Of a stretch of DNA of 64,000 bases, positions 1 through 2,517 are shown piece after piece. Made by a program: the position numbers and the translations under genes. This DNA comes from Roseofilum capinflatum BLCC-M114 (lineage in GTDB: Bacteria; Cyanobacteriota; Cyanobacteriia; Cyanobacteriales; Desertifilaceae). How positions within the stretch are numbered: position 1 is the stretch's first letter; each line of letters opens with the position of its first letter. The notes under the pieces were generated by a model. It searched no databases. It worked only from the letters and a program-made list of their open reading frames with translations, and was not told the origin of the DNA. The DNA lies in assembly GCF_030068505.1 (NCBI RefSeq), contig NZ_JAQOSO010000082.1, forward strand, positions 1 to 64,000, read 5' to 3'.

Positions 1-162
1 TTAGTAAATTGTAGCACATAGCTTACCCATGATTTTAAGCTTGCCGGTCCAGTAGTGGCTTGGCAAGCTTAATTTTGTGGGCAACGCGATCGCTGTAATT
101 TATTCCATTAGTAAATTGTAGCACATAGCTTACCCATGATTTTAAGCTTGCCGGTCCAGTAG
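1..162. repeat. 55-bp direct repeat, two copies 107 bp apart
   Basis: The same 55 bases occur at 1-55 and 108-162, beginning TTAGTAAATTGTAGCACATA and ending GCCGGTCCAGTAG, with no visible mismatch. The 52 bases between them are unrelated. The second copy runs into a short palindrome at 163-179 (GGTGGGCA / TGCCCACC) of a kind often dispersed in cyanobacterial genomes. No gene was found here; the first copy may extend beyond the window edge. Confidence 0.85.
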
Positions 163-229
163 GGTGGGCAATGCCCACCTACAAAATAATCCCTATATGT
201 TTCAGAAAATAAACAACAGGTACAGACCT

Positions 230-466
230 TTAGGGCAGAGCCGAGATATTAAACAGAGCATCTAGATACACTCGTGCTGCCTTCCGATAGCTCGATTGAT
301 GACTCTCCGGAGTCTGACCATTTCCATTTTGCAGCAAAAATAGGGACAAGGCCGCAGAAAATACTCGCTCTTGATCCCAATCGGGATGATTTTCTAAATA
401 GCATTGGATGGATTCGTGGAGGTCTTCAGGTATTTCTGCCAGAATACTCACGGTCGTAGTATGCAT
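230..466 (-). CDS. DUF2811 family protein
   Basis: This 78-residue protein begins MHTTTVSILAEIPEDLHESI and continues with a HPDWDQ segment followed by FSAALSLFLLQNG, the conserved core of the cyanobacterial DUF2811 family as I recall it. There is no signal peptide or membrane segment. The family has no established function; its size and helix pattern would suit a small regulatory or protein-binding role, but that is a guess. It is transcribed away from the DUF302 gene, so the roughly 500-bp spacer to its right is flanked by two outward-pointing genes. Confidence 0.8.
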   Translation of the reverse strand: MHTTTVSILAEIPEDLHESIQCYLENHPDWDQERVFSAALSLFLLQNGNGQTPESHQSSYRKAARVYLDALFNISALP

Positions 467-738
467 ATGCAGCCCTCAAGGATTGGGTTTAGTGAATGTT
501 GGCATAATGCCTCGTGGCTCTATTGTGTGCTAGGGATAGGCGGTATTGTCAATGTTGCGAATTATTAAAAAAGTCGATTATTTTTTGTTACATCAACGAA
601 AGAATCATACTTTCAACCCATTTTTTGTTACATAACTTTATGATTTGACTCCAGTCCGTTGCCGTTCCCGTCAGGATCGAGAAATCCCCAAGGGAGACTT
701 AATGATAGGGCTAGATGGGAGTTTAGTCAGGTTAAGGT

Positions 739-823
739 TGTGTAAAATCCTGGAGAAATTGTGGAAAAGATCGGGGGAACTTGTGGAAACTCTGTGGACG
801 TTCTGGGGAAAAGAGGGGGAAAT
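739..823 (-). other. Phased DnaA-box-like array (possible origin element)
   Basis: Read on the minus strand, TTTTACACA (739-747) and TTTTCCACA (760-768) match the DnaA-box consensus TTWTNCACA. GTTTCCACA (782-790) is one base off; weaker copies follow at 793 and 804, with degenerate ones near 751, 773 and 815. All point the same way at roughly 11-bp steps or multiples (21, 22, 11, 11), so they fall on one face of the helix. TTTTCCACA is the DnaA box reported for the Synechococcus elongatus origin. No dnaA or dnaN is present in this window, so origin status is inferred, not shown. Confidence 0.55.
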
Positions 824-874
824 GATAAGAATTACGAATTTGTGCCCTATAAGTCATGGGCCTCTTAATACTGC

Positions 875-903
875 TTGACAACCAAATAGTTATATACTAT
901 TGT
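875..903 (+). promoter_or_regulatory. Probable promoter of the DUF302 gene
   Basis: A perfect -35 box TTGACA (875-880) is followed after 17 bases by TATTGT (898-903), which matches four of six -10 positions. The predicted start lies about 50 bases upstream of the ATG at 964. An overlapping TATACT (893-898) would give too short a spacer. Confidence 0.5.
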
Positions 904-963
904 TAAGACAACAGGGATAACCGAGTTAACCGCCCTGACCATTGCCATAGAAGACAGAGGATT

Positions 964-1368
964 ATGAGCTATCACTTTAGTATTATTCTAAATACGACCC
1001 TGGATGAGGCGATCGCCCAAGTCACCGAGGCCCTGAAACAAGAAGGATTTGGGATTTTGACCGAAATCAACGTTCAAAACGCTTTCGCCAAGCATGGTAT
1101 CGAGTTCCATACCTATCGCATTCTCGGTGCATGTCATCCCCAACTTGCCCATCGCGCTCTCCAAGCCGATGACAAAGCCGGAACCCTCTTCCCTTGTAAC
1201 GTGGTGGTACAAGACAAGGGACAAGGAGCGATTGAAGTCTCTGCGGTTAACCCTTTGGGAATGCTCCAAGCCGTTGAACATCCCGATGTCCAAGCCATGG
1301 CTGAAGAAGCCAGCCAGAAAATGCAAGCCGTCATTTCTCACCTGAAAGCCCCAGCCTTAACCTCATAG
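964..1368 (+). CDS. DUF302 domain protein
   Basis: This 134-residue protein is a single DUF302 domain. It has the family's central ILGACHPQLAHRALQ segment, with the conserved Cys and following Ala-rich helix, then LFPCNVVVQ and a strand ending in EVSAVNPLGML. There is no signal peptide. The DUF302 fold is a dimeric alpha/beta domain, sometimes found beside metal or redox genes, but its biochemical role is not established. A transporter of the arsenite/bile-acid superfamily follows 170 bases downstream on the same strand; a functional link is only suggested by position. Confidence 0.85.
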   Translation: MSYHFSIILNTTLDEAIAQVTEALKQEGFGILTEINVQNAFAKHGIEFHTYRILGACHPQLAHRALQADDKAGTLFPCNVVVQDKGQGAIEVSAVNPLGMLQAVEHPDVQAMAEEASQKMQAVISHLKAPALTS

Positions 1369-1536
1369 CAGAGGATTAAACGGGTGGCTCCCGAATTTAA
1401 ACTTGCACGCATCAAAACCACCCATCTCTCTAAGACTAATCTTTCCTCCAATTTAGGTCACCGTCTCCCCAATTGCATGAAATAAAAATTGGGGGGAATT
1501 CTTCACTCCTTAGCGTCACTGTTGTTTGAATCAATT

Positions 1537-2517
1537 ATGTGGAAAATTTTATCTTTTTTACAAAAAAACTTAACTTGGTCAATTCCTATTTTTATGATCT
1601 TGGGGGTTGTCTTTGGACTCCTGGCCGATCCATCAGGACTCAAATCATTAATTATTCCCCTCACTTTCTTGATGGTTTATCCCATGATGATCAACTTGCA
1701 AATCAAGAAAGTGATCGCTGGAGGAGACTACAAAGTTCAAATCGTCACCCAGCTTATTAACTTTGCAATTATTCCCTTTTTTGCCTTTGGAGTTGGGAAA
1801 CTGTTCTTTAACGATCAACCCCTAATTCTCTTGGGTTTACTCCTAACCTCCCTATTACCCACCAGTGGCATGACTATTTCCTGGACAGGGTTTGCTAAGG
1901 GCAATATTAATGCTGCCATTAAAATGACAGTAATTGGATTAATTGCTGGCTCCATTGCTACGCCCTTCTATGCCAAATTTTTGATGGGGACAGTGATTGA
2001 AATTCCTCTGGCCAATATTTTTAAGCAAATCATCATTATTGTCTTCTTGCCAATGATTTTAGGTCAGATCACCCAATTTCTGTTGATTAAACAGGTTGGG
2101 ATGGACAAATATCAGAAAAACTTAAAGCAAAAATTTCCCGTTTTTTCTACCTTGGGAGTTTTAGGGATTGTGTTTGTGGCCATGTCCTTGAAAGCACAGG
2201 CCATTTTAGAGAATCCGGCGATGTTGCTCTCCTTGTTAGTTCCCTTGGTGACGATTTATGGATTTAACTTTCTGTTGAGTACGTTGATTGGCAAAGCCTT
2301 ATTCGATCGCGACAATGCGATCGCCCTAGTCTATGGTACAGTCATGCGTAACCTGTCCATTGCCCTGGCGATCGCCATGACCGTGTTTGGTCAAGAAGGC
2401 TCAGAAATTGCCCTGATCATTACCATGGCTTACATTATCCAAGTTCAAGCCGGTGCATGGTACGTCAAATTTACCGACCGCATCTTTGGTAAAGTCCCCA
2501 CCTCAGAAGCCATTTAG
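1537..2517 (+). CDS. Acr3/bile acid:sodium symporter superfamily transporter
   Basis: The protein is about 326 residues with roughly ten hydrophobic segments and almost no soluble part. The N-terminal MWKILSFLQKNLTWSIP, the following LGVVFGLLAD and the LLPTSGMTISWTG motif resemble the Acr3-like arsenite efflux branch of the bile acid:sodium symporter superfamily. I chose the ATG at 1537; an in-frame TTG at 1489 would add 16 residues without family resemblance. No arsR or arsC gene lies next to it, so the substrate is uncertain; it could export arsenite or another anion. It acts in the cytoplasmic membrane. Confidence 0.75.
   Translation: MWKILSFLQKNLTWSIPIFMILGVVFGLLADPSGLKSLIIPLTFLMVYPMMINLQIKKVIAGGDYKVQIVTQLINFAIIPFFAFGVGKLFFNDQPLILLGLLLTSLLPTSGMTISWTGFAKGNINAAIKMTVIGLIAGSIATPFYAKFLMGTVIEIPLANIFKQIIIIVFLPMILGQITQFLLIKQVGMDKYQKNLKQKFPVFSTLGVLGIVFVAMSLKAQAILENPAMLLSLLVPLVTIYGFNFLLSTLIGKALFDRDNAIALVYGTVMRNLSIALAIAMTVFGQEGSEIALIITMAYIIQVQAGAWYVKFTDRIFGKVPTSEAI

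Follow-up and report, generated by a model that had tools for sequence, protein, structure and literature searches.

The DNA that we analyzed, referred to here as the window, covers positions 1–64,000 of contig C82 in the 5.37-Mb genome of Roseofilum capinflatum BLCC-M114. Near its start, a DUF2811 gene and a DUF302 gene face outward from a shared intergenic region. The preliminary description of this DNA had stated that the flanking genes face outward, but it did not connect the array with DUF2811. A site scan located the five DnaA-box-like sites given in that description, all in one direction and with start-to-start steps of 21, 22, 11, and 11 bp (Table 1). The observation that dnaA and dnaN are missing from the window was also correct, as dnaA is on contig C87 and dnaN is on contig C74.

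Table 1. Features of the DUF2811 upstream region and its flanking genes, in window coordinates
Feature	Position	Strand	Basis
DUF2811 gene, 78 aa, PF10929	230–466	minus	Pfam, 3e-27
CACAAT, candidate −10 of the DUF2811 promoter	522–527	minus	kept downstream of TTGACA in relatives; putative promoter activity
TTGACA, candidate −35, within conserved block TCGCAACATTGACA	547–552	minus	near-constant distance to last box
HLR1-like (RpaB) candidate motif GTTACATAACTTTATGAT	627–644	plus	14/16 consensus positions
Conserved block TTGGGGATTT, place of a weak inverted DnaA-like box	682–691	minus	inverted-box peak in other genomes
DnaA box TTTTACACA	739–747	minus	site scan and aligned relatives
DnaA box TTTTCCACA	760–768	minus	site scan and aligned relatives
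DnaA box GTTTCCACA	782–790	minus	site scan and aligned relatives
Degenerate box ACGTCCACA	793–801	minus	3 mismatches to TTTTCCACA, weakest of the five; ACTTCCACA in the nearest relative
DnaA-like box TTTTCCCCA	804–812	minus	site scan and aligned relatives
Conserved block at far end of array, here AAATTCGTAATTCTTATCATT	821–841	minus	aligned relatives
DUF302 gene	964–1368	plus	

The array exists and exceeds chance expectation. Four of the five sites (739, 760, 782, and 804) differ from TTTTCCACA at no more than one position, and at this stringency the top cluster in the window consists of four same-strand sites within ~75 bp. When 200 windows were simulated with a first-order Markov model and counted in the same way, the maximum was one site in 148 of them and two sites in the other 52. 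The array is not unique in a looser count (up to two mismatches, ~90 bp), in which four sites also occur together on the opposite strand at one other location in the window. In the genome as a whole, TTTTCCACA occurs 103 times and the reversed word 30 times, a 3.4-fold difference.

Two further box arrays were seen in the same genome. The first, at C84:65576-65625 (L022 5577-5648), has three exact boxes at 20- and 21-bp steps plus one near-exact box, and it sits just after a cation-efflux gene (PF01545); similar arrays lie beside similar genes, judged by eye from translations, in G001, G003, G005, G010, and G012. The other, at C2:63280-63318 (L019 5281-5312), immediately follows topA (DNA topoisomerase I), and an array after a topA-like frame is also present in G001 and G005 (L094, L095).

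Alignment of the spacer in relatives, which the preliminary description had set as a check, showed that the array is conserved between related genomes, and so did not refute the interpretation given there. The R. halophilum spacer aligns without gaps, with the boxes largely kept and the bases between them changed. Across five of the six Roseofilum genomes (G004, in which the array is offset by 2 bp, was left out), 2 of 43 columns within the boxes are variable compared with 15 of the 31 columns between them (Fisher p = 1.2e-5, a value that ignores relatedness). In a set of 29 genomes, our own included, 25 have a DUF2811 orthologue, and an array lies upstream of DUF2811 in 23 of the 24 that are dnaA positive.

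We defined an array as at least two same-direction boxes with no more than one mismatch each, separated by steps of 10–12, 20–23, 31–34, or 41–45 bp. By this definition an array lies upstream of DUF2811 in 75 of 82 dnaA-positive Cyanobacteriia (79 of 88 loci), and a chain of three or more boxes is present at 59 of the 88 loci. These 82 genomes are part of the 104 dnaA-positive genomes of the class that we saw, and comprise the 30 best DUF2811 matches, the 29-genome set, and others picked for breadth. Loci of the dnaA-negative genomes G020, G191, and G156 were counted apart, and we dropped two duplicates (L162, L180), two loci for which other stretches from their genomes were substituted (L078, L079), and a weak second match (L081). 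The commonest steps within the chains are 22 bp (81 cases) and 21 bp (56), followed by 11 bp (15), and 68 loci together contain 231 forward boxes, compared with 28 in the opposite direction and 12 reversed-word controls. No recognizable array was found in 7 of the 82 genomes. Three of these belong to one genus (G015, G086, and G103) and four to family f33, in which the array was judged on only part of the DUF2811 copies (one of two in G150 and G213, one of three in G183 and G189). In the three genomes of the single genus, the best boxes upstream of DUF2811 are TTTTCCCCA-type (CCCCA-type) variants despite the presence of dnaA, and the specificity of DnaA may have shifted in this genus.

The boxes are one part of a larger conserved layout. 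Toward DUF2811, the order is the far-end block (usually TTTG[CT]AATTCTTAT), the boxes, the TTGGGGATTT block, an A/T-rich tract that includes TATGTAACAAAAA, and finally TTTCGCA[AG]CATTGACA, a block that resembles a promoter. An inverted box with up to two mismatches peaks 44 bp past the last forward box in other genomes (11 loci). The A/T-rich region at 541–660 is the conserved spacer and putative promoter region of DUF2811. The 19-bp spacing between CACAAT and TTGACA is long for a −10/−35 pair. The TTGACA motif was found in 55 of the 79 loci with an array and not in the other 24. At 42 of the 55 measurable loci the last box is 181–184 bp from TTGACA, so that the boxes hold a set position relative to this presumptive promoter motif, and at seven more, Roseofilum among them (195 bp), the distance is 195–197 bp. 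From the promoter to the gene, taken as the point where the DUF2811 match begins, the distance ranges from 78 to 385 bp (n = 55). The standard deviations at these 55 loci are 11.5 bp for array to promoter and 64.5 bp for promoter to gene. Because the first distance is near fixed and the second varies, we conclude that the array keeps its place relative to the promoter and not relative to the reading frame.

An HLR1-like motif lies at −91 or −92 from TTGACA in 32 of 51 regions. The motif scores at least 13/16 in 45 of the 51, but because 18% of base-shuffled regions score as high, it remains a candidate. Control of DUF302 by the array was considered and rejected, because in G001, G002, and G005 there is no array upstream of the DUF302 gene, while DUF2811, which is on a different contig there, retains it. 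A structured RNA was likewise dropped as a candidate; a search of window positions 1–2000 with Rfam gave two matches only, both far below the gathering scores.

We found that the presence of DUF2811 closely follows the presence of dnaA. In a phylum survey of 214 genomes at 95% completeness or better, 103 belong to class Cyanobacteriia, and DUF2811 is present in all 90 members of the class that are dnaA positive. (Two genomes scored as dnaA positive have a short open frame, of 214 aa in G009 and 200 aa in G222.) Among the 13 dnaA-negative members, DUF2811 is absent from 10, broken by two stops in G156, and kept in G020 and G191. No genome of the survey outside the class had a DUF2811 match above the cut-off, and there was one match below it. 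Within the 29-genome set, neither gene is present in G024, and DUF2811 is also missing from G026, whose dnaA is broken. This joint absence is not a matter of general gene loss, because dnaN is kept in the dnaA-negative genomes G014, G020, G021, and G024 and also in G026. Loss of dnaA occurred more than once, because dnaA-negative genomes of g14, g26, and g43 have dnaA-positive counterparts in the same genus. In a β-clamp tree that covers 27 genomes of the 29-genome set, the dnaA-absent label requires three changes (bootstrap 2–3), of which the well-supported branches force only one.

The two dnaA-negative genomes that keep DUF2811, a gene without which the former place of the array could not be examined, were compared with dnaA-positive members of their genera. 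In G020 the boxes are gone, and the flanking block at the far end (in some form) and the promoter persist; G131, of the same genus, has three exact boxes and one near-exact box. The array of G191, with one exact and two near-exact sites, still qualifies as an array by our definition and is weaker than that of its congener G152 (two exact and one near-exact). Genome-wide, we counted 13 tandem box pairs in 15 genomes with absent or broken dnaA (5 for the reversed control) and 59 in 19 selected dnaA-positive genomes (7 for the reversed control), some of the 59 being the DUF2811 array itself. Tandem pairs are thus rarer without dnaA (p = 1.4e-5 by a Mann-Whitney test that ignores relatedness). A dnaA-negative genome, G119, also contains a perfect 21-bp tandem repeat with three TTTCCACA words (C2:18151-18200), which is iteron-like and perhaps from a plasmid.

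The preliminary description had offered a replication origin or a DnaA regulatory or titrating site as alternatives. The regulatory or titrating half gains support, in that the boxes and their spacing are kept far beyond the genus and the neighboring gene goes with dnaA. From these sequence comparisons, we consider it probable, at roughly 60%, that the array is a conserved DnaA-responsive regulatory element that controls DUF2811. The boxes share a single direction, are stepped by one or two helical turns, lie ~183 bp (195 bp in Roseofilum) from TTGACA, and occur class-wide, and DUF2811 is mostly absent without dnaA. Because the array is near fixed relative to the promoter of a gene that is mostly missing without DnaA, a DnaA-controlled switch is a better explanation than an origin. 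In such a switch, DnaA, probably as DnaA-ATP, would bind the array cooperatively, and the complex, acting through the conserved spacer, would set the level of DUF2811 transcription, perhaps with the participation of RpaB at the HLR1-like site. A distance of 183 bp is large for promoter control of the ordinary kind, which counts against the proposal; a position this far upstream of the −35 would suit activation or control by looping better than a mechanism in which RNA polymerase is simply blocked. On this view, the small DUF2811 protein would be required chiefly in cells that contain DnaA, and it could plausibly feed back on DnaA activity or replication. A more specific proposal, to which we give somewhat worse than even odds, is that DUF2811 acts, specifically in cyanobacteria, as a partner or feedback regulator of DnaA and is itself controlled by DnaA (and perhaps by light/RpaB) through the class-wide composite element, in a circuit that would keep dnaA where replication no longer needs it.

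Clusters of DnaA boxes outside oriC are known in other bacteria, namely datA and DARS in E. coli and the DnaA-box clusters of B. subtilis. The array could be a titration or reactivation site of this type that governs initiation, with its adjacency to DUF2811 being secondary. Like those clusters, it places several boxes outside oriC, here all in one direction and away from the dnaA and dnaN regions, and the arrays after the cation-efflux gene and after topA show that other conserved extra arrays exist. The near-fixed distance to one promoter and the class-wide association with one gene family nevertheless set it apart from them, and neither this rigid distance nor the missing DUF2811 reading frame where dnaA is absent is expected of a mere sink. 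We therefore regard titration as unlikely. Eight intergenic DnaA regions are given for B. subtilis in work cited in the available portion of PMC7198777.

The array is probably not a replication origin, and it seems quite improbable that it is a second one or the one used where boxes beside dnaA or dnaN are missing, as in Roseofilum. It resembles the oriC located by dnaN or dnaA in Synechococcus 7942, Anabaena 7120, and Cyanothece 51142 in being a cluster of several TTTTCCACA boxes with an A/T-rich neighbor, which here lies between divergent genes. Our genome also has no exact DnaA box near dnaN (C74:159382) or dnaA (C87:164641), and the usual origin arrangement appears to be lost in Roseofilum. 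Unlike those origins, however, the array lies elsewhere in the genome, on a contig separate from both genes, is accompanied by the arrays on C84 and C2 instead of being the sole cluster, and is locked to a gene promoter. Among the 24 dnaA-positive members of the 29-genome set, 13 have at least two exact boxes near dnaA or dnaN, G027 is ambiguous, and ten, our own included, have no such cluster (dnaN was not found in G002 and G018, so these were judged on the dnaA side only). All 13 also carry the DUF2811 array, which argues against the origin half of the earlier proposal, and the array persists in nine of the ten without the cluster (the exception is G015). The DUF2811 array runs one way at 21/22 bp, in contrast to the opposed halves of many of the dnaN arrays that we saw. 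GC skew is irregular and uninformative within the window and in 20 sampled stretches of a single-contig relative, G017, as the accessible text of PMC7198777 describes for most cyanobacterial species. In G017, where the locus is at 1027 kb, the skew is positive at 930 kb and negative at 980 and 1050 kb, a change opposite in sense to that at an origin.

The idea that another protein recognizes TTTTCCACA at these sites and that the link to dnaA is indirect is very improbable: DnaA binding to the array is a prediction and further conserved blocks flank it, but TTTTCCACA has been published as the DnaA box of cyanobacteria and boxes of this type are footprinted by domain IV of the Cyanothece DnaA (both from the available part of PMC4674748), G020, which is dnaA negative, no longer has the boxes, and dnaA-negative genomes contain fewer tandem pairs.

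The DUF2811 protein resembles nothing that we could identify. For a low-confidence single-sequence model (mean pLDDT 67.7), Foldseek gave 47 matches, all of them weak and with E values above 0.001, and the best match to PDB sequences was at an E value of only 0.25. Comparison of 23 members with other profiles gave 0.0097 for the best other Pfam family and 0.088 for the best NCBIfam, and a scan of IMG/VR gave one match, of 14 residues. A ribbon-helix-helix fold, suggested at first by resemblance, gained no support from the searches. A full-text literature search, with most subscription journals outside its coverage, found no paper on DUF2811 or PF10929, and no title or abstract opening found in such searches, which extended to DnaA ChIP-seq in a cyanobacterium, described an element of this kind. 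Within that coverage, the present element gives DUF2811 a first context.

The promoters of nrdAB, dnaA, and gcrA are regulated by DnaA. The DUF2811 region is like them in having boxes upstream of a promoter and unlike them in that the array is ~183 bp upstream, across a conserved spacer, and has a DUF gene as its putative target. The HLR1-like motif near TTGACA recalls the RpaB/HLR1 promoters of cyanobacteria, but it lies at a greater distance upstream than do the activating sites in the available part of PMC13421787, and its second half-site is often poor. Ohbayashi et al. 2020, in the available portion of PMC7198777, call the role of DnaA unclear in cyanobacteria that have dnaA yet replicate without DnaA. 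The presence of the array in nine of the ten genomes without dnaA/dnaN-adjacent clusters, together with the absence of DUF2811 from most genomes without dnaA, makes this element a concrete candidate site, with a candidate target gene, for DnaA in such cyanobacteria.

Three minor observations concern the rest of the window. The nearest named relative of the DUF302 protein is from Roseofilum halophilum BLCC-M91 (96% identity, in a scan that may omit records very close to our own). A further exact TTTTCCACA at 1538–1546 lies at the start of an SBF transporter coding region, and the protein sequence may account for the copies of this site in relatives. The contig begins with two copies of a ~55-base repeat (ttagtaaattgtagcacatag..., positions 1–180), which is probably dispersed and caused the assembly to break here.
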